IMG/VR virus record: IMGVR_UViG_3300032331_003307
Span: 1 to 36,127 of that record
Origin: a virus
Length of the DNA stretch: 36,127 nt
Strand: one strand, 5' to 3'
Below are positions 5,572 to 15,505 of this stretch, piece after piece; the stretch's first letter is position 1, and each line of letters starts with the position of its first letter. Made by a program: the position numbers and the translations under genes. The notes under the pieces were generated by a model. The model searched no databases, was not told the origin of the DNA, and saw nothing but the letters and a program-made list of their open reading frames with translations.

Positions 5572-8262
5572 ATGAGTGAAAAATTACATATAGATACCAG
5601 TTTGGCTGAAGGTGCAACCCCAGAACTGCTGATCGTATTCTCGCATCCTACAAAAGATGATTTGGAGGCTAGAGCGTTCGGAAAGAAAGGTTCTGCAAAA
5701 GAAGTGCTGGATGCTCTTGATTTTGCGGGAATAGACTTGTCCAGGGTACACTTTACCGGAATGGTAAAATACGGAATAGGCAGCAAGCCAAAGCCTGCGG
5801 CAGAAGATATTGAATACTGGTCTAGTGCATTAGACGAGGAGATACTAAAGATACAGCCGAAACTCATCATGCCTATGGGCGCAGAAGCGTTCAAGAGGAT
5901 CATGAAGTCTAACATGAAGATGGGAGACTATACTGGGGAAATTATAGACTCTCCGTACGGCAAAGTTCTGGCAAACTATTCCGCAGGCATGGTGGCAGTG
6001 GTAGATCCCACCAAGAGGCCAGAGTTCAAAGAGATATTCAAGCTCGCCAGGAGGGCGCTTGATAATAACATCAACTATGATGAGTATAAGTATATAGTTG
6101 TTGATGACCCTGAGGTAAACAAAGCTATTCTTCAAAAATATATTGATGAAGAAATGTTTAATATAGGCTATGACGCAGAATGGTTCGGCTCTAAATTTAC
6201 TGACGATGAGGTGATGTATGAATTTCAGTATAGCTGTGCAAAAGATAAGGCGGTCATATTGAACATATCTAAAGACGGTGTTACTGAAAATTTAGAGCTG
6301 TTGAATACCATGAAGCTCATGCTCGAGCATCCTAAAGCCAGAAGGCTTGGATGGAATATTCGTGCAGACGACCTCAGGCTAAGATACCGAGGGTTTAATA
6401 TACCTGATGAAACGCTTGCATTCGACGGAATGAAAGCTGTGGCATTCTTTGACTCTAGGCTCAGCAAGGGCTTGGAGACAGGCATCAAAACCTTCACAAA
6501 CTATGCGCCATACTATACAGAGTTCAACAGGAAGATGAAAGAGCACAAGCTGGCTAAGAATGAGCTGGCTAAACTCAAATTTATAGAGCCTGATGTATAC
6601 TACCGCTATTGCGCTGGAGATGCTGTTTCTCATAGAGAAGCCTGCCTCAATATGATGGAAGCGCTGCCTGAGAACGTCAAGAAGCCCTACTTTGATATAT
6701 ACTTGCCTCTCACAAGCTATTTCACAGACATGGAGCTTACAGGCATTCCTGTAGACAAAGAGGTACTGGAAGATATTACTGTAAAATATAGTAAGAAATA
6801 CGATGAGTTGAAGGCCGAGCTGGTAGCATTTATCAAGGATAAGTTTGGAATAGACGACTTTAATCCAAACAGTTCACTACAGAAAAAGCAGCTATTGTTT
6901 GACACTCTCGGAGTGACCCCTGCCTACTATACAAAGTCTGGCAAGAGTCCTAAGAGTAAAGTGTGGTATGACATGCAGAAGCCGCAAACTCAAAAACTGT
7001 ATGAGCCTAGCACAAATGGTAAAAGTTTATCGACGATTAAGTTCCAGCTTGAAGAACTGATTGCAGAGGGCAATAGTGACGAGCATACGCTAGATTCGCA
7101 TAAAACCATATCTCTGCTGCTTAGCGTAAGCAGGGTGGGCGTGTTTGCTACTAAATTCTTATCTAAGAAGGGTGTTGCAAACGCTGGCGAATCTGAATTT
7201 GACGAGGATCATGATGAGCCTCTCAAACAGAGCTACTGGTCTGCCATATGCAAGGACGGTAGAGTTCATGCTAGCTTCTTTGAGTGTCTTAAAAACTTTA
7301 GGGCAAGCAGCAGCCCTAACGTACAAAATCCTGCGTCGAAAGTTTTGGCGTACATACCTGACATATTTGTTCCTGGCTACAGCAAGCTCACCAAAGATGA
7401 GCAGCAGCCATTTGATAAGCATCTGCCCAAGAATATCAGGAATATCTTCTACTCTGGAGATCCAAACTACTACTGGGTAGAACTTGACGTGGCGGGGGCA
7501 GATTTGGCGATTATGGCCTTCCTGTCTAAAGATAGAGACTTCATACACGATATACGTGCAGGAAGTTTCCATCAGACGAAGATGCGCGAGTACTTCAACG
7601 ACCACACTCTGACCAAGAAAGATGTGTCAAAGTATACTATTGCAAAAAGTATTACTTTCAGGGTTTCATATACTGCAGGATTAAAATCTGCAGCAATACC
7701 TATCCAAGCAGACATCTATGCTGAGAACGGGCTGGCTGTAGGGCTACCTACAATCGAGTTTGCTCTGCAGACATGGGAGAGGTATACACGCTATATGGAG
7801 TTCAGAGATGATTGCACCAATGAAGTTAAGAGCCATAAGCGAATAACCAATGCTAGAGGGCTTGTGCTTGATTATGAGGAAACTGATAACTTTGGCATAT
7901 TAGCAGGCTGGATGAATGAGAGCCTGGCATTTCCTGTAGCAAGCGAGTTGGCCTGGTTTATGTGGGAGGCATCTGTAAATCTAAAGAATACTCTTAAAAA
8001 AGAGAATCTTTGGATGGAGTATGTTTACCCTGTGAATACGGTGCATGATGCAGGCTACTGGCTGGTTCACAAAGATCTGATCAAAGACAACTATATCCAA
8101 GAGATACTCAAGCACACATTCTGTCATCAGACAAAGCTGGCCACAGGAGACAATGTTGGCTGCGAGCTGGCGATAATGGATAGATGGAAGGGTAAGGATA
8201 AGATATTTGAGAAAGAAACAGCTTGGAACTTCGATAAAAACATGTGGGAGTGGAAAGAATGA
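5572..8262 (+). CDS. polA: Family A DNA polymerase with N-terminal UDG-like domain
   Basis: An 896-aa replicative polymerase in three parts. Residues 1-165 resemble a uracil-DNA-glycosylase fold (LLIVFSHPT, VHFTGMVKYG, then QPKLIMPMGAEAFKRIM). Such a fusion is known in SPO1-type phages, where the domain's catalytic status is uncertain. Residues ~175-355 are a 3'-5' exonuclease with D201-A-E203, GWNIRADD near 260-267 and YRYCAGD ending at D350. The polymerase domain has motif A DVAGADLA (D639, with D644 where most enzymes have Glu), a motif B-like KSITFRVSY and motif C VHDAGYW. The second acidic residue of motif C (normally HDE) is Ala827. The enzyme is otherwise intact and, in its position after the helicase, is probably the main fork polymerase. 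Confidence 0.93.
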   Translation: MSEKLHIDTSLAEGATPELLIVFSHPTKDDLEARAFGKKGSAKEVLDALDFAGIDLSRVHFTGMVKYGIGSKPKPAAEDIEYWSSALDEEILKIQPKLIMPMGAEAFKRIMKSNMKMGDYTGEIIDSPYGKVLANYSAGMVAVVDPTKRPEFKEIFKLARRALDNNINYDEYKYIVVDDPEVNKAILQKYIDEEMFNIGYDAEWFGSKFTDDEVMYEFQYSCAKDKAVILNISKDGVTENLELLNTMKLMLEHPKARRLGWNIRADDLRLRYRGFNIPDETLAFDGMKAVAFFDSRLSKGLETGIKTFTNYAPYYTEFNRKMKEHKLAKNELAKLKFIEPDVYYRYCAGDAVSHREACLNMMEALPENVKKPYFDIYLPLTSYFTDMELTGIPVDKEVLEDITVKYSKKYDELKAELVAFIKDKFGIDDFNPNSSLQKKQLLFDTLGVTPAYYTKSGKSPKSKVWYDMQKPQTQKLYEPSTNGKSLSTIKFQLEELIAEGNSDEHTLDSHKTISLLLSVSRVGVFATKFLSKKGVANAGESEFDEDHDEPLKQSYWSAICKDGRVHASFFECLKNFRASSSPNVQNPASKVLAYIPDIFVPGYSKLTKDEQQPFDKHLPKNIRNIFYSGDPNYYWVELDVAGADLAIMAFLSKDRDFIHDIRAGSFHQTKMREYFNDHTLTKKDVSKYTIAKSITFRVSYTAGLKSAAIPIQADIYAENGLAVGLPTIEFALQTWERYTRYMEFRDDCTNEVKSHKRITNARGLVLDYEETDNFGILAGWMNESLAFPVASELAWFMWEASVNLKNTLKKENLWMEYVYPVNTVHDAGYWLVHKDLIKDNYIQEILKHTFCHQTKLATGDNVGCELAIMDRWKGKDKIFEKETAWNFDKNMWEWKE

Positions 8263-8990
8263 GTACGCTAACCAGATTTAAGCTTACCAATAACAGCAAA
8301 GTAAGATTCAAGGCAAATCACTGTAACACTTTCAGTCTGAAGCAGGGAGCCGCCGAAGATGGCGGTACCTGCCCAGGAATGACAGAAGGACCAGGAGGCT
8401 GTGGAGATAAATGCTATGATAAGAATCTCAGGAAGCTCTACAAAGCATATGCTAGTGTAGAAGACCATAATACTCAGCTTGTGATCAACAGCTCTAAAGA
8501 TGATACATACAGCGTAATTAAAAACTCTGTAATATACTGGCTGCTAGGAGAGGGAAACAAACAACCCTATTTCCGCATCCATACAGGAGGAGACTTCTAT
8601 AGCGAAGAGTACGCCAGTTGCTGGGCTAGAGTAATGATGGAACATCCTGAGGTACAGTTCTGGGCATATACCCGCTCATTGTTTGCTGTGCCTATTCTCG
8701 CGGAGGTGAGCAACCTAACTTTGTATTTGAGTTGCGATCCTGTAAACAAAGATAAAGTTATTAAAGCCTACGATGACTATAAACATTATCCTAATGTAGC
8801 TATAGCCTGGATGGGTAACGAGATTCCTGAAAATTTATTTTCAGATAAAGCTTTTTTAGTTTGCCCTGAAGTCACGGGTAAGCTAAAAAATAAAAAGACG
8901 GAAGGTGCATGCTCTAGATGCAGAGCTTGTGTTGACCGCAAACTAAAAAACGGAAAAATAAGACACATACAGTTCCCTATCCACAGGTAA
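8259..8990 (+). CDS. GP88-like phage protein with conserved cysteines
   Basis: The start is the ATG overlapping the polymerase stop (ATGA), preceded by a GGAGTGGAAAGA purine stretch; an upstream in-frame start would sit inside polA. The 243-aa product has an N-terminal cysteine cluster (C38-PGMTEGPGGC48 and C52), the motif RIHTGGDFYSEEY, and a C-terminal cysteine cluster ACSRCRACVDR. This layout matches the phage Gene-product-88 family, of unknown biochemical function. The cysteines suggest a metal or Fe-S centre, which is inference. It ends the replication operon; the next gene begins after a 43-base gap. Confidence 0.75.
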   Translation: MSTLTRFKLTNNSKVRFKANHCNTFSLKQGAAEDGGTCPGMTEGPGGCGDKCYDKNLRKLYKAYASVEDHNTQLVINSSKDDTYSVIKNSVIYWLLGEGNKQPYFRIHTGGDFYSEEYASCWARVMMEHPEVQFWAYTRSLFAVPILAEVSNLTLYLSCDPVNKDKVIKAYDDYKHYPNVAIAWMGNEIPENLFSDKAFLVCPEVTGKLKNKKTEGACSRCRACVDRKLKNGKIRHIQFPIHR

Positions 8991-9318: not shown

Positions 9319-9325
9319 TTTCCCT

Positions 9326-9351
9326 CCAAATGTTCCCCCCAGAACATTTGG
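9326..9351 (+). other. Perfect 10-bp intergenic hairpin without U-tract
   Basis: CCAAATGTTC and GAACATTTGG are exact inverted repeats around a CCCCCA loop. The following bases (GTCGCAGAAAA) contain no T-run, so it is not an ordinary intrinsic terminator. It lies between two small genes of similar codon style, where it could stabilise or process the transcript, or be a protein-binding operator. Confidence 0.6.
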
Positions 9352-9397: not shown

Positions 9398-9658
9398 ATG
9401 AACACATACAAAATCGAAATCGCAGACAAGACCGGACACACAACTGTAGCTGACCTGACGCTAGACCAGGCAGTAGACGGAATTCTGGAGCATGCCGAAA
9501 ACAATGCCCGTTGGGTATTCATTAACGGTGAAAAGTTTGAGTTCCAAGGAACCAACTATCGTGCAGAAGAGAACCTCCAAAAGCTTCGCGGCAAACTCGA
9601 AGCCGTTGAGGATCCCGCTGTGCTACTGACCGGCATTCTGATTGGCGGGCGTAAGTAA
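9398..9658 (+). CDS. 86-aa hypothetical protein, highly expressed type
   Basis: An 86-aa acidic protein starting MNTYKIEIADKTGHTTVADL, with a helical segment LDQAVDGILEHAENNARWVF and a strand pair VFINGEKFEFQGTNYRAEEN. No known domain is recognised. Its codon choice (CGT/CGC for Arg, frequent GCC/GAA) matches the preceding small gene and differs from the rest of the window. The long A/C-rich leader (AAACAACAACACACAACTC) lacks an SD. A strong terminator follows, so this gene and its neighbour probably form their own abundant transcript. Confidence 0.7.
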   Translation: MNTYKIEIADKTGHTTVADLTLDQAVDGILEHAENNARWVFINGEKFEFQGTNYRAEENLQKLRGKLEAVEDPAVLLTGILIGGRK

Positions 9659-9681: not shown

Positions 9682-9720
9682 AAACCCCCTGGTGAGCAAT
9701 CATCAGGGGGTTTCTTTTTA
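9682..9720 (+). terminator. Rho-independent terminator
   Basis: Stem AAACCCCCTG/CAGGGGGTTT around a 12-base loop (GTGAGCAATCAT) followed by a T-rich run (TTTCTTTTT). It closes the transcript of the two small genes upstream. A further tiny CCC-TTCG-GGG hairpin (9721-9730) lies immediately downstream. Confidence 0.9.
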
Positions 9721-9760: not shown

Positions 9761-11860
9761 ATGGACCTACCTTATAAATCTTTTTTAAAAATAGCGAAAC
9801 AAACACAAACATTAAGCAAGCACGTCAAGACAATGGACGTGAGCATCGATAAATCTACTGAATATGTAGATAATCAATACGTACCTACAGTAAAAGTAGC
9901 GTACACAAGTCTACACTTCGATACGGTGGCAGACATGCACGCCTATTCTAAGTATCTGCCGATACCTACACATAAACTTAAAATAGCATCAGACCTCAGA
10001 TACCAAGATCTTGAATCAAACATAGCTCAACGTGGAGGCTGGGACAATACTCACGTTATGCAATTTTTAAGACAGGAGAGCTCTAAGGGCGAGCCTTCCG
10101 TAAAGCTTATCCCTGAAGAAACAGCGTATGCTTTTCGCCCTAATATAATCAAGATCGCTCCTATCGAGTATACAGAAGGAGACTATACATACAGAATTCT
10201 TACAAACCAGAGCAGTAAAAACTATAGTGCGCGTATTCGAGTTATAGCTAGAAACGATGAGCCTATTTACGATTACCTGGATAAAGGGTTTTTCGTAATG
10301 ACTGTTACCGAAAAATCTGACGAACTATCTAAGCCTGCTTTTGTTGTGTCAGATAGTTATGATGTAAATACTGCACATATTTTTATGATGTGTAAGATGC
10401 AACATAACCTAATCAGTATGCTGAAAGACGAGTGCTTTGTGAGTAAGTATGATGCAGAAATGACTAAGCTCAAAATGCTCAGAAAGCTAACTCCTGAGGC
10501 TAAAGCGTTATACTTGAAGCATTCAAAGGCGATTGATGAAGATTATCGCAAGAATACTACACTGGTAGTAGTTGGGAAATTACTTGCTGGCGAAATTGAA
10601 AAAACTACTATTAGAGAAGTGGAATTTTCAGCTACAACAGCGAAGTATGAGAATACTGAAATTGAAGCTGAGGATCTCATGACTGTACTGTCAAAAGACC
10701 TTGATTTTAATAGCGAGTTCGACATCTATGCCGTGGTTCAACTCTATGCTAATTATGCGAAAACGAACCTGGCCGCCAAGCGCTGGAGTTACACAGAAAT
10801 CCAGGACATTAATGCTGGTGCGAATGAGCTTAAACAGAAGAGTATACCCACGTTTAAAATCAACGGAATCGGTATATCTGCAGCAGTTTCTTATTCTGGG
10901 CAAAGGTACTTAAACAATATCAGGATTAACCATGACGAGGTAGCTCAGGCGATATCTCGCGCTTCCTGCTATAGATCAGCCGAAGACTATAGCCTGTTCC
11001 TCAAGAGCATCAGCCGCATGAGTATTAGGAGGCATGATATTATCGCGAATGGTCTACAGGTAAAGATTCACGCAGGCATGAGCGGAGATGAATACAGAGA
11101 AGCTACTCCCGGCCTAAACGCTCCTGCGCTTAAGTTTGTAATTGATAAGCAAGATAAACGTATCAAGCTGTATATTGATGAAAATCGACAAGTGCCTGTA
11201 GATATCAGCGGGCTGATCAAGAAGGTGCAGACGATCAACTCAAAAACAAACAATAGATCGTTTTACGATAAATCAGAAAACGCATATCAGTATATCAACA
11301 GAGATCATATCTGGGCAGCTAAAGAGCTTACCAAAGCCCTGATTGAGTTTACTACGTTCCCCGTGAAGTTTAAGAATTTGGAGGACGGTACAGTAGTCGA
11401 GAAAGATGAGGTACTGATATCTAAAGACGACGTCGCTAAACTGTTGAAGGTAGTTGATGACCAGAACAAAGCTAAAATCGAAAGATCTAAGCAGTTCTTG
11501 AGTACTGCAGTAAAGCTTACAGGAGCTGAAGAAATTGAGTTCTTGGGACAAAAGGCCTATAGGGTAAAGGGCGGCCTTAGAGAATACGCTATAGTCATTA
11601 GTAACGCCAAGGTCTATGATTATGAGACAAAACAATATCGCTGTATTGTTAATGACAGGCATTATAAAGGTGCAGGTTATGACGACGTAGCCAGCAGACT
11701 ATTGGCTCTCAAAAACGACTCGGTAATGCAAGATCATATCGGCACACTAAGAGGCCAGGCCCAGCCAGGAGCTGAGAACGCTCATAATGATTACAGACCT
11801 GAGCGCGACGTTCAGGACATAATCAGCCCAATCGTAGATAAGGCATTTGAAAAAGTATAA
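9761..11860 (+). CDS. 699-aa protein of unknown function, first gene of the JAMM/E1 operon
   Basis: A large soluble protein with no recognised catalytic motif. The N-terminal two thirds are mixed alpha/beta (HFDTVADMHAYSKYLPIP; FKINGIGISAAVSYSGQRYL). The C-terminal ~110 residues form what looks like a separate module (AVKLTGAEEIEFLGQKAYRV ... DDVASRLLALKNDSVM), ending in a flexible tail. I recall similar C-terminal modules in other phage proteins but cannot assign a function. The leader contains TATAAATA (9744-9751) and no SD. It is followed after 2 bases by the JAMM gene, then the E1-like gene, so it could be a substrate or partner of that pair; this is inference. There is no C-terminal Gly-Gly. 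Confidence 0.8.
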   Translation: MDLPYKSFLKIAKQTQTLSKHVKTMDVSIDKSTEYVDNQYVPTVKVAYTSLHFDTVADMHAYSKYLPIPTHKLKIASDLRYQDLESNIAQRGGWDNTHVMQFLRQESSKGEPSVKLIPEETAYAFRPNIIKIAPIEYTEGDYTYRILTNQSSKNYSARIRVIARNDEPIYDYLDKGFFVMTVTEKSDELSKPAFVVSDSYDVNTAHIFMMCKMQHNLISMLKDECFVSKYDAEMTKLKMLRKLTPEAKALYLKHSKAIDEDYRKNTTLVVVGKLLAGEIEKTTIREVEFSATTAKYENTEIEAEDLMTVLSKDLDFNSEFDIYAVVQLYANYAKTNLAAKRWSYTEIQDINAGANELKQKSIPTFKINGIGISAAVSYSGQRYLNNIRINHDEVAQAISRASCYRSAEDYSLFLKSISRMSIRRHDIIANGLQVKIHAGMSGDEYREATPGLNAPALKFVIDKQDKRIKLYIDENRQVPVDISGLIKKVQTINSKTNNRSFYDKSENAYQYINRDHIWAAKELTKALIEFTTFPVKFKNLEDGTVVEKDEVLISKDDVAKLLKVVDDQNKAKIERSKQFLSTAVKLTGAEEIEFLGQKAYRVKGGLREYAIVISNAKVYDYETKQYRCIVNDRHYKGAGYDDVASRLLALKNDSVMQDHIGTLRGQAQPGAENAHNDYRPERDVQDIISPIVDKAFEKV

Positions 11861-11862
11861 TT

Positions 11863-12297
11863 ATGTATATATTTAGATACGGCATAGAGTCATTCGTCAA
11901 AGCTATATTAAAAGCTTCTGAAGAATGTGCCAGCACACAAGAGGAGGAGGGCGGCTTGATCCTAGAGAAAGAAAGCGTCTATGAATTCGTGAGGGTGAAA
12001 AATCTTTACGAAGGAACAGACAGGGCTTCAGGATTGTATGAGACAGATCAAGAGGAATTGTCTCAATTAGTGTTCTCAAGAATATGTAAAGGCTGGAAGA
12101 TGCACGCCAGCTTTCATACTCATCCATCATTCAGCCCTACTCCCAGCAGCCTTGATCTTGATAAACTGTTCCAGGGCTTCAGATACAACATAATATGGTC
12201 ACCAGTACATAGAACCTTTTCCTATTCTCAATGGATTGGAGAAGATTCTTACGTTACGTATTTACCAATTAAAACACTAGAAAAACTTAGCAAATAA
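11863..12297 (+). CDS. JAB/MPN (JAMM) metalloprotease-like protein
   Basis: A 144-aa single-domain protein with a complete JAMM zinc signature: H85-T-H87, then seven residues, S95-x2-D98 (FHTHPSFSPTPSSLD), with an upstream glutamate candidate in EEEGG (E29). JAMM proteins in eukaryotes and bacteria cleave ubiquitin-like modifiers or process sulphur-carrier-like proteins; some phage versions are tail-assembly peptidases. Here the gene is not in a tail operon. It is sandwiched between the 699-aa gene and an E1-like gene (2-base and 1-base gaps), the combination seen in bacterial ubiquitin-like conjugation or deconjugation loci. The active-site motif is seen; the substrate is unknown. Confidence 0.88.
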   Translation: MYIFRYGIESFVKAILKASEECASTQEEEGGLILEKESVYEFVRVKNLYEGTDRASGLYETDQEELSQLVFSRICKGWKMHASFHTHPSFSPTPSSLDLDKLFQGFRYNIIWSPVHRTFSYSQWIGEDSYVTYLPIKTLEKLSK

Positions 12298-12298
12298 C

Positions 12299-12895
12299 AT
12301 GAAATTAGACAAAATTGCTATTGCAGGCGCAGGCGGTATCGGCTCTAATCTACTAGGCATATTGTTTGATTATGGCTACAACCGTAAACAGTTCAGCTAT
12401 ATGGATACCGAAGTGGATATCTATGATGATGATACTGTGGACATTAAGAACCTGCTTCATCAAAACTTTAAAATTGATGATGTAGGTAAACATAAAGTAA
12501 AAGTGCTTGAAGATAAGTATATTGTTCATGGTATTACTCGTAGAATGACAGTGGATGACTTCAGTAAATACAATGTCATCTTCAGCTGTGTAGATAGCAT
12601 GGCATTCAGGAAAAGCCTGTACGAGTATGGCTGGAGCACTAGTAAAGATGAGCTATTCTGGGTTGACGGCAGATGCACCAGCAGGCAAGGTGCATTGTTG
12701 ACATCAGATGCGCTTAAACCCGCGCTAGAGCCGTTTATTAATGATTCGCAGGAAGAAGGCGGTTGTCTTCTAGCCTACGAGAAAGAGCAGAACATCAGTC
12801 ATACGCTGCCCACAGTGGTTGCCGCTATGATGGTGCAAGCATACCTGAATAAGCTTAGAGGTCAGCAGACGTTTAAATCAGTATTCATGGTCTGA
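12299..12895 (+). CDS. E1/ThiF/MoeB-like adenylyltransferase
   Basis: A 198-aa Rossmann-type adenylating enzyme. It shows the nucleotide loop GAGGIGSN (10-17), then DIYDDDTVDIKNLLHQNF, which corresponds to the E1 pattern D-x-D-x-V...N-x-x-R-Q with His in place of the Arg, and DVGKHK with the conserved lysine. FSCVDSMAFR matches the later D/R motif. There is no CxxC zinc pair. Cysteines C97, C126 (WVDGRC) and C156 (EEGGC) are present; one of the last two could carry a thioester. Family role: ATP-dependent adenylation of a C-terminal Gly of a ubiquitin-like or sulphur-carrier protein. Its tight linkage to a JAMM gene suggests a modifier system, but no modifier is evident in the operon. Confidence 0.87.
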   Translation: MKLDKIAIAGAGGIGSNLLGILFDYGYNRKQFSYMDTEVDIYDDDTVDIKNLLHQNFKIDDVGKHKVKVLEDKYIVHGITRRMTVDDFSKYNVIFSCVDSMAFRKSLYEYGWSTSKDELFWVDGRCTSRQGALLTSDALKPALEPFINDSQEEGGCLLAYEKEQNISHTLPTVVAAMMVQAYLNKLRGQQTFKSVFMV

Positions 12896-13164
12896 TGATC
12901 TGTAAAAAACATAAAGATACACAGAAAAAACTTGCTGAAGAACATTTAGTGCATATCCTTGAAAAGACATGCTTGTCGCTAAATATAAGATTAGAGGAAT
13001 GGAACCTCGACAAAGAGCTGTTCGTAGCTATTGTCACAAATCCGAAAGTAGATTCAGCAGCAGTACGCCACAATCTAGCTATGTACGACACATGCTATGA
13101 TATGGCAAAAAAATTGAACATTAAGATAAATACAAATCTTAAATGGTTCACAAACATCAACTAA
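12895..13164 (+). CDS. 89-aa helical protein, last gene of the JAMM/E1 operon
   Basis: Its ATG overlaps the E1-like stop (TGATG), implying coupled translation. The product is largely helical (KLAEEHLVHILEKTCLSLNI; AAVRHNLAMYDTCYDMAKKL) with three cysteines after the N-terminal MIC. It does not look like a beta-grasp ubiquitin fold and has no C-terminal Gly-Gly (it ends TNIN), so it is unlikely to be the modifier. It might be an accessory or adaptor of the E1-like protein. Function unknown. Confidence 0.65.
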   Translation: MICKKHKDTQKKLAEEHLVHILEKTCLSLNIRLEEWNLDKELFVAIVTNPKVDSAAVRHNLAMYDTCYDMAKKLNIKINTNLKWFTNIN

Positions 13165-13197: not shown

Positions 13198-14265
13198 ATG
13201 GCTATTATCGCACCATCACTAAAATTCGAAGGCTCTGACTTAAACCTCTCGCAATCCGCATCAGCGTATCTCAATGAGAATGTAAGAAAGGCTGTCTTTA
13301 ACAAAAGCACAAACAAAGATGGCGCCTACCTGTATTTTCTTCCTGCCTACAAGGCGGATTATGCAGGCAACGGCGTTTGGTACAAGAAGATCTACATCCG
13401 TGACAATTTTGGCACAAACTACAAGGAAAAGTATTTTGTAGCTAACCGCGCCACGGACCCTGCAGAGTACTTTGCAAATAACTTCAGGGTGCTTTATCCT
13501 GAAGATGCTAAAGTGGTAGATCAGGACGTTAACGGCAAAAAGTTCAAGAAGTATCCAAATTATGGTCGTGCGACTGAGCGTGTGCTGTTCAATGTTGCGT
13601 TCTCTCAGAATCTTTCTGCCGGGGCGCATGTGCTTGACCTGCCTCTCAGGAATGGCGCAGACAACCTGATGAACTGGCTGGAAGGCCTGGACATGCATGG
13701 TAAGGCTCGCCAGCCAATCAATCATCCTTCGCATTGTGTTCCTGTGTTTGTTAAGCTCAAGGAAAACAGTGCAAATCCATGGATGATTCAGGTAGAAGGC
13801 AATGAGGCTGTATCATTGCCTGAACAGCTCGCCGACAGCGAGTATCTGTACAATCTGGACGAAATCCTGGTAACCAAGACAAAGGAAGATATTATCGCAA
13901 AACTTCGTGAGATGTATTCTTCTGAAGTTTTTGATGACTGTATGGATGGTTTCCCTGGACTGACTAGAGCCTCCTCGCAAGGGGCAGTAGTCACGAAAGC
14001 TGCAACCACATCACGCCCAGCCGCAAGAGAAGAGCAAGTCGCTCAACCTGCTGCACCTAAACAATTAGCTCCAGTTATTGATATCCCGAGGGCTACAATA
14101 GATATTCCTAAGGCAAATATCTCTGCTCCTGTAGCTGCAGTGAATCCTCCTGTAGCTGCAATAAATACACCTACTGCAGCAGATATCGCAAGTTTACCTG
14201 CTAATCCAATGGCGAGTGCGCGGTTATCTAGGGAAGAAGCATTACGTTTCATCAGCCAAGAATAA
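13198..14265 (+). CDS. Single-stranded DNA-binding protein (gp32-like)
   Basis: A 355-aa protein directly before UvsX. The N-terminal ~240 residues form a beta-rich, aromatic- and lysine-containing domain (YLYFLPAYKADYAGNGVWYK; KIYIRDNFGTNYKEKYF), similar in layout to gp32-type proteins. The last ~90 residues are Ala/Pro-rich with repeated IDIP and PVAA units, then a short acidic end (SREEALRFISQE), like the flexible acidic tail SSBs use to recruit partners. No gp32 zinc motif is visible. It would coat ssDNA and load UvsX. Codons are more CGN-rich than in its neighbours, and the leader is A-rich, consistent with the high expression of an SSB. Function is inferred from architecture and position. 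Confidence 0.62.
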   Translation: MAIIAPSLKFEGSDLNLSQSASAYLNENVRKAVFNKSTNKDGAYLYFLPAYKADYAGNGVWYKKIYIRDNFGTNYKEKYFVANRATDPAEYFANNFRVLYPEDAKVVDQDVNGKKFKKYPNYGRATERVLFNVAFSQNLSAGAHVLDLPLRNGADNLMNWLEGLDMHGKARQPINHPSHCVPVFVKLKENSANPWMIQVEGNEAVSLPEQLADSEYLYNLDEILVTKTKEDIIAKLREMYSSEVFDDCMDGFPGLTRASSQGAVVTKAATTSRPAAREEQVAQPAAPKQLAPVIDIPRATIDIPKANISAPVAAVNPPVAAINTPTAADIASLPANPMASARLSREEALRFISQE

Positions 14266-14278
14266 CAATATATAAACT

Positions 14279-15505
14279 ATGGATTTTGACGGGTATTTTA
14301 ATTCAGTAAAGAAAAGTTTCGAGAAAACGTTTAAATCTGGCGGAGTAGCGCTTGAATTAAATACCGTAGATAAAGAGTTACCTCCAACAGGGATTATACT
14401 AGATAATCCTCTGTTGGAGTATGCATTCGACCGGCGCTTTATGGCGTACGGTCGGTGCTATCTCATCTATGGTAAAAAAGGTTGTAGTAAAACAACCATG
14501 TTGTTTGATCTAGCCAAGATATTCCAGAAGGCTGGAGGGCGTATGGTCTGGGTAGAGACAGAAAATGCTCCAGACTTCAGATATATGGAACTGCAGGGTG
14601 TCGACCCTACCAAAGTACACTATCACAACCCTAAATCTCTTGAGGAGGCTCTGACGTTGTGTCAGAACATCATCGAGAATTTTAGTAAGTACAGTGATGG
14701 TAAAACTCCGCTGCTTGTGGCTCTAGACAGTATCGCGGGAGGCTGTCCAGAGTATGAGCGTGAGCAGGACGTGGTAGGCCAGACCAAGGTAGGCGAGCAT
14801 GCTAAACTCATGAGCGCCTTCTATCGCAGGATCACGCCATATCTAGAATGCGAGAATATGGTGTTCGTTGCCACCAATCAGCTGAAAGAGCAGATTGGTG
14901 GAATGGGAGGCTTCGGGCAGGAAAAGCCTGAAGCATTGATCGGTGGCGATGCCCAGAGGTTCAACAGCACCTATCAGTTCAAGGTGGCCAGGATCAAAGA
15001 CAATCTGGAAGAAGATCATATGGGCGTAAAGCGCAAGGCAGGCTCTACGCACACTCTTGTAGTCAAGCGTAATAAGCTTGGGCGCGAGGGAAACAGTCAG
15101 AAGATTGAGTTTGATATCCACATCAAGGGAGGCATCGACTGGTACTCTCCTTTGGTGCGCCTTCTGGCTGAAGATTATCCTGCTCTTGTAGGAAAGTCTG
15201 GAGGATGGTATACTTGGAAGACCGAGGGTACCTCCTTTAGCATAGATGTTGAGGGAGTGCCCACAGACGGTGTGATAGATGTTAACAAGAAGTTTAGAGA
15301 GCATGAGCTTGGTTATATTATTAAAAACAGTCATGCCGCGAAAGAAATGATTCGCGATGCCTTTGCTGTTCCTCCAATGCATAATACTAGCGTAGAAAAA
15401 GAGATTGAAAAAGCTAACAAAGCTAAAAGAAAACGCGCCAGCGAACTCGAGGAGCAGGTTGAAGATATGGTGCACGAGCTGGAGCAGAGATCAAAGATAC
15501 TATAA
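14279..15505 (+). CDS. uvsX: UvsX/RecA-like recombinase
   Basis: A 408-aa RecA-fold strand-exchange protein. Walker A is GKKGCSKT (65-72); a catalytic Glu follows in VWVETENAPD; Walker B is LLVALDSIAGG near 143-153; FVATNQLKEQIGGMGGFG corresponds to the DNA-binding loop region after motif Q. The C-terminal ~40 residues are a charged helix. It forms filaments on ssDNA and drives recombination-dependent replication with the gp32-like protein upstream. The start is SD-less (AACAATATATAAACTATGG). Length is close to T4 UvsX. Confidence 0.93.
   Translation: MDFDGYFNSVKKSFEKTFKSGGVALELNTVDKELPPTGIILDNPLLEYAFDRRFMAYGRCYLIYGKKGCSKTTMLFDLAKIFQKAGGRMVWVETENAPDFRYMELQGVDPTKVHYHNPKSLEEALTLCQNIIENFSKYSDGKTPLLVALDSIAGGCPEYEREQDVVGQTKVGEHAKLMSAFYRRITPYLECENMVFVATNQLKEQIGGMGGFGQEKPEALIGGDAQRFNSTYQFKVARIKDNLEEDHMGVKRKAGSTHTLVVKRNKLGREGNSQKIEFDIHIKGGIDWYSPLVRLLAEDYPALVGKSGGWYTWKTEGTSFSIDVEGVPTDGVIDVNKKFREHELGYIIKNSHAAKEMIRDAFAVPPMHNTSVEKEIEKANKAKRKRASELEEQVEDMVHELEQRSKIL

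Follow-up and report, generated by a model that had tools for sequence, protein, structure and literature searches.

A candidate ubiquitin-like protein encoded with E1-like and JAMM genes in the replication block of a phage lineage

The archaeal SAMP/UbaA/HvJAMM1 system has a small beta-grasp modifier with a Gly-Gly, one non-canonical E1 without an E2, and a JAMM peptidase. In bacteria, the Bil and type II CBASS (Cap2/Cap3) systems follow an E1 plus JAMM logic of conjugation and deconjugation, and the plasmid-borne PRTRC loci (compare type 6d among the operons of Iyer et al., 2006) carry a standalone ubiquitin-like gene, a gene for a protein of about 430 aa, further genes and, last, a ThiF gene. 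The same study (PMC1779556) described bacterial operons that combine genes for ubiquitin-like, E1, E2 and JAB proteins, as well as the JAB/Ub pair that serves tail assembly in lambdoid phages. Here we analyse a phage locus that encodes a candidate ubiquitin-like protein (Ubl), a 699-aa protein (B699), a JAMM peptidase, an E1-like enzyme and an 89-aa protein (S89). It lies in a 36,127-nt stretch of IMG/VR record IMGVR_UViG_3300032331_003307 (the window, to whose full length all coordinates refer; Table 1). The data suggest that this lineage of large, uncultured phages runs its own ubiquitin-style protein tagging during infection. Among open PMC papers, our search turned up none that describes a phage module of this kind; subscription papers and preprints lay outside its scope and a prior description is possible.

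An initial annotation had described the last four of these genes as a modifier/demodifier module, and their boundaries and the gaps of 2, 1 and -1 bases between them, all on the plus strand, are as it gave them. It had also stated that no ubiquitin-like protein was visible. A candidate is, however, encoded directly upstream of B699. AlphaFold, with an alignment of 23 sequences, modelled this 86-residue product with strands and helices in the order b-b-a-b-b-a-b (mean predicted local distance difference test score, pLDDT, 77) and a low-confidence, flexible C-terminal tail. Among solved structures, the top Foldseek hits belong mostly to the ubiquitin family; the best include a trypanosome ubiquitin-like protein, SUMO, ISG15, di-ubiquitin, archaeal SAMP1 and Caldiarchaeum ubiquitin, and the modelled fold is likely to be a beta-grasp. 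A Gly-Gly near the C-terminus is invariant in all 23 aligned homologues and in the two most distant loci (L110 and L111), 25 of 25 in all; of the open reading frames (ORFs) of the same size class, counted over the window and a 198-kb relative, only 2.6% have a Gly-Gly within the last 11 residues. The residues that follow are not conserved. Among the 23 homologues there are none (three cases), one to nine, or a 75-residue extension, and the two most distant loci have an extension of about 155 residues (L110) and a single Cys (L111). An invariant Gly-Gly with a variable tail fits a precursor that is trimmed by the JAMM peptidase.

The stop codon of the Ubl gene is followed by a hairpin in 21 of 21 loci folded. 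Its sequence varies between loci, and its z-score against dinucleotide shuffles is below -3 in 20 of the 21 (median -4.7). There is no downstream T-run in some distant relatives, so the hairpin may be a terminator in some phages and a 3'-end stabiliser in others; in either role it would allow the modifier to be made in excess over the enzymes. A separate inverted repeat without a T-run, CCAAATGTTC/GAACATTTGG, lies at 9325-9350, about 50 nt 5' of the Ubl start.

By its JAMM/MPN+ site and its profile match, the predicted product of the JAMM gene is an intact JAMM/Prok-JAB peptidase. The zinc site noticed in the initial annotation reads H85-T-H87-x7-S95-x2-D98, with E27/E28 upstream, and its E, H, H, S and D residues do not vary across 24 homologues. 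Pfam Prok-JAB (PF14464) matches the window protein above cut-off (E=5e-8) and is matched by 24/24 members; the protein also aligns with AfJAMM and further solved JAMM-family structures. Exactly one JAB gene was counted in each of six large relatives.

The next gene is likewise predicted, from motifs and profile, to encode what is an E1/ThiF adenylyltransferase, as the initial annotation had read from the motifs GAGGIGSN (10-17), NLLHQ (51-55) and DVGKHK (61-66). Pfam ThiF (PF00899) matches with E=4e-17 (62.6 bits against a cut-off of 28.1), and further profile matches are to the NEDD8 E1, the SUMO E1, UBA5 and CBASS Cap2, and also to ThiF and MccB. The nucleotide-site motifs and the cysteines C126 and C156 are invariant in 22 homologues; G10, G12, G13, D43, N51, Q55, K66 and D99 are invariant even in comparison with plasmid PRTRC and crAss-like E1s. 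Distant E1s have a Cys in the C156 region, where the alignment is gapped. C156 is, judging by sequence, likely to be the crossover-loop cysteine, and its Cys...LPT...VQ context appears to resemble the crossover-loop arrangement of UBA5. Exactly one ThiF gene was counted in each of eight large relatives. By BLAST the nearest phage relatives of the E1 are mainly in Flavobacterium and crAss-like phages, and a search for bacterial and archaeal relatives in 84,980 genomes gave only three weak E1 matches (30-36%). In one relative (L041, 11300-12400) the E1 gene is split by about 1.1 kb carrying a 323-aa ORF that by eye is LAGLIDADG-like, as in homing endonucleases; the insertion had no Rfam intron match.

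Scans with each module protein identified 29 viral contigs in addition to the window. The order Ubl-B699-JAMM-E1-(S89)-355aa-UvsX is found on one strand in 26 of these 30, and in the other four the module is cut by the contig end. Wherever a contig is long enough to show it, Ubl, B699, JAMM and E1 occur together and in that order. The block therefore recurs in the same order far more often than chance would give. Where dS is unsaturated, Ubl (compared with L009, L003 and L039), B699, JAMM and E1 have a ratio of nonsynonymous to synonymous substitution rates (dN/dS) of 0.03-0.10; the values are 0.24-0.26 for S89 and for the Ubl pair furthest apart (the latter 0.26).

The phage module resembles the archaeal SAMP/UbaA/JAMM system most in the way it would work, and we claim no membership of that system. 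Modifier, lone E1 and JAMM peptidase have their counterparts there, SAMP1 is among the fold matches of Ubl, and the phage JAMM weakly matches the Haloferax desampylase model NF041370 (E=0.002, far under cut-off). The phage module differs in being phage-borne in a tight replication operon, in the removable tail of Ubl and in having B699 and S89 in addition. Its gene order parallels that of the PRTRC loci, and PRTRC_ThiF is the best NCBIfam model for the E1, with 45 bits against a cut-off of 144.75. However, none of 23 phage Ubl members matches the PRTRC-C model of NCBIfam, and three PRTRC-C sequences that we read end in Asn-Gly in contrast to the Gly-Gly plus tail of the phage Ubl. The phage module also has no ParB and no PRTRC-B/E2_D, and its JAMM protein is compact. 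With Bil and type II CBASS it shares the conjugation/deconjugation logic and a weak match to the Cap2 E1 domain, but it is encoded by the phage and not the host, and no E2 domain, CD-NTase or effector was found in it.

In crAss-like phages, Flavobacterium phage Fpv3 and Salmonella phage Arash (gp246c-248c), a ThiF gene is immediately preceded by a JAB or JAB-like gene; in the crAss-like phages, genes for primase and uracil-DNA glycosylase lie close by. The E1s of these clusters are 21-26% identical to the phage E1 studied here; their JAB proteins are longer, and B699 and a compact Ubl are not recognisable. Such clusters suggest that phage Ubl modules may extend beyond the present lineage. In Arash (L053, 1519-4539) the products gp248c to gp246c, annotated as 'structural protein' or hypothetical, are Prok-E2_D-like (weakly, E=0.024), Prok-JAB and ThiF, respectively, a PRTRC-like set in a phage. 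We inspected by eye the JAB/ThiF neighbours in the crAss-like phages cr85_1 and Kolpuevirus frurule and in Fpv3 (L050 2855-5782, L051 2316-5545 and L052 2532-5882). There the product of the gene two upstream of JAB seems to start with a ubiquitin-like domain that ends in ...KSGA/KSGG and precedes another domain, and the product of the gene between it and JAB has a YMHSH...C[LI]G motif, conserved and reminiscent of PRTRC-B/E2_D.

Neither the 699-aa nor the 89-aa product matched a family above cut-off in Pfam, PHROG or NCBIfam. B699 has a weak match to DUF7737 in 20 of 24 members, and every member of the 24-sequence alignment has C403 and C628. Its AlphaFold model is locally confident (pLDDT 84; predicted template modelling score 0.52) and has no match among the solved structures of the PDB. 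The C-terminal part (563-651), in which the initial annotation had looked for a beta-grasp module, is modelled as a helix, a beta-meander and a helix, so the suggested role of B699 as the modifier is unsupported. We have rejected B699 both as modifier and as E2 because its C-terminus is not a beta-grasp and no PDB fold matches it; it could be a transferase, a scaffold or a target. Three unnamed viral proteins of 416-452 aa in BFVD (A0A516M0H5, A0A516MG04 and A0A516LSW3) resemble part of the B699 model, with E values from 3e-7 to 2e-5, and are perhaps short B699 homologues in other phages. Tracing them by tblastn with the most distant B699 gave nothing useful, and there were no cultured relatives of B699 or of a divergent Ubl in 50,697 phage records. 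S89 has a single invariant Cys, C26, in an alignment of 15; no consistent family was found for it, and it was undetected in several complete loci.

From the gene set, the catalytic residues, the Gly-Gly and the synteny we infer how processing, activation and conjugation would run and where the targets would lie. Ubl would be made from its own gene with its own terminator-like hairpin, and the JAMM peptidase would trim the short tail after the Gly-Gly. The E1 would adenylate the exposed glycine and probably then hold Ubl as a thioester at C156, and Ubl would be joined to amino groups or lysines of target proteins, from which the JAMM peptidase would remove it again. UBA5, a minimal E1, carries its cysteine on the crossover loop, and Urm1 conjugation is independent of E2 and E3 (PMC12355090). 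The initial annotation saw no E2, and this holds: Prok-E2_B and Prok-E2_D (PF14460, PRTRC-B) had no match in six large relatives and Pfam gave no E2 family on the module proteins, the genome-wide search being confined to those two families. With no recognisable E2, transfer would either be E2-independent, as in archaeal SAMPylation and with Urm1, or proceed via B699 with its two invariant cysteines. The targets would most likely be phage replication or recombination proteins, or host proteins met during replication.

We favour such a phage-encoded, reversible and possibly E2-less Ubl system as somewhat probable, and several points tell against it. The structural matches of Ubl are modest (best E 0.0095, template modelling score about 0.35-0.45 to known Ubls) and the protein has no match in any sequence-family library scanned, which is why we grade its fold as likely and not as proven. 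The usual arginine of the NLxRQ motif is a His in the phage E1. No E2 was found in the search just described, and conjugation is a prediction from sequence and models. Profile-profile comparison with PRTRC and crAss-like parts failed even for the control, JAMM against crAss JAB. Finally, sulfur-carrier systems share the same three components. A bolder form of this conjugation reading, in which B699 is the transferase of a complete self-encoded reversible cascade that tags the phage replication and recombination machinery, as an analogue of ubiquitin/SUMO replication control, we regard as doubtful.

Sulfur transfer is the main rival, unlikely in our view and yet to be taken seriously. Here the JAMM peptidase would trim Ubl and the E1 would make a Gly-Gly thiocarboxylate, giving sulfur for modification of tRNA, a nucleotide, a DNA base or a cofactor. 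QbsE/QbsD/QbsC and CysO/Mec+ are precedents, and in sulfur pathways small carrier proteins have a Gly-Gly followed by a short stretch that is cut off. Sulfur operons with JAMM, E1 and ubiquitin-like genes have been described (Iyer et al., 2006; PMC1779556). The phages of the present lineage also encode tRNAs and many nucleic-acid enzymes. Against this, the phage E1 has no rhodanese domain, no sulfur-accepting enzyme was recognised in the operon, and rhodanese, Aminotran_5 (cysteine desulfurase) and PAPS-reductase-like (PAPS_reduct) genes were not found in seven large relatives; the sulfur could nevertheless come from host enzymes. It is less probable again that the module serves counter-defence, with Ubl, E1 or JAMM disturbing conjugation by the Bil or type II CBASS system of the host as a decoy modifier, a dominant E1 or a deconjugase. 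Bacterial E1/E2/JAMM conjugation is reported to act against phages (PMC10097602), and there are weak matches to the PADLOC CBASS JAB and E1-E2 models. These are, however, at a generic level (best E 5e-5 and 9e-5). A phage that relied on deconjugation alone would have no need of a Ubl and an E1 of its own, and the module is fixed among replication genes in every complete relative instead of lying in a variable accessory region.

The initial annotation had sought the modifier in the C-terminal module of B699, in an unlinked phage gene or in a host protein. Although B699 is strongly conserved and always adjoins the Ubl and JAMM genes, this now seems very improbable, with a Gly-Gly Ubl gene directly upstream in every complete locus and a B699 C-terminus that is not modelled as a beta-grasp and has no conserved terminal Gly-Gly. 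Most improbable of all is that the JAMM acts in tail assembly, like lambda gpK, and that the ThiF gene is a bystander. The phage JAMM does match phrog_5556 'tail protein' (E=3e-6), a JAB-domain similarity, but context contradicts this reading: no NlpC/P60 domain or tail genes were recognised nearby, and all complete relatives have the replication context, with E1 always adjacent and UvsX in the same place.

The initial annotation had set the module inside a replication-recombination block, and the neighbours in Pfam and PHROG agree with this: they include a DEAD-type helicase, a DnaB-type helicase and a DNA polymerase, with UvsX soon downstream. It had also named the two genes that follow as a single-stranded-DNA-binding protein (SSB) and UvsX. 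The second stands, whereas the 355-aa product has no Pfam or PHROG match, so that 'SSB' is a label by position. Upstream, a 248-aa protein with several Cys pairs (8244-8990; phrog_1392) is conserved ahead of the module in those relatives whose flank reaches far enough. Ten relatives (L039, L023, L026, L031, L034-L036, L041, L044 and L046) have an extra gene between B699 and JAMM, in which YIIDIET...ITFNG..FDIPFLCRR reads by eye as DnaQ/DEDD-type 3'-5' exonuclease-like. L112 (5132-6721) encodes, away from the module, an AAA ATPase of 529 aa that matches the AAA core strongly, and each large relative tested likewise has an unlinked AAA protein with such a match; that it might be an unfoldase partner is speculative. 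A Shine-Dalgarno-like motif is present at just 5 of the 33 window genes, a rate not above that at random positions, and together with the BLAST relatives of the E1 this points weakly to a Bacteroidota host.

Table 1. Positions and supporting evidence of the module genes and adjacent features in the window
Feature	Coordinates	Strand	Evidence and remarks
Ubl, 86-aa modifier candidate	9398..9658	+	C-terminus ...LLTGILIGG-RK; AlphaFold, Foldseek, invariant Gly-Gly
Stem-loop with T-rich tail, intrinsic-terminator-like	9682..9713	+	14-bp stem; hairpin present in all loci folded
B699, 699 aa, fold without known match	9761..11860	+	AlphaFold; invariant C403 and C628; between Ubl and JAMM
JAMM/Prok-JAB metallopeptidase, 144 aa, predicted Ubl processing/deconjugation	11863..12297	+	Pfam PF14464, zinc site
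E1-like/ThiF adenylyltransferase, 198 aa	12299..12895	+	Pfam PF00899; invariant C126 and C156
S89, 89-aa accessory protein, fast evolving	12895..13164	+	Alignment of 15; invariant C26
355-aa protein, probably gp32-like single-stranded-DNA-binding by position	13198..14265	+	Precedes UvsX in all complete relatives
UvsX/RecA-like recombinase	14279..15505	+	phrog_97 E=3e-37; Pfam RecA E=2e-23

The bacterial E1/JAMM conjugation systems known so far are mostly plasmid-borne or antiphage. Here Ubl, E1 and JAMM belong to the fixed gene set of a phage lineage and lie among its replication and recombination genes. The related ThiF/JAB clusters of crAss-like phages would offer a genetic system for the same question; for one of these phages a cultured host is available, Bacteroides cellulosilyticus. 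Should conjugation be demonstrated, the three genes for proteins of 86, 198 and 144 aa would be a very small and testable model of Ubl processing, activation and removal, and phages themselves would be users of ubiquitin-style tagging.

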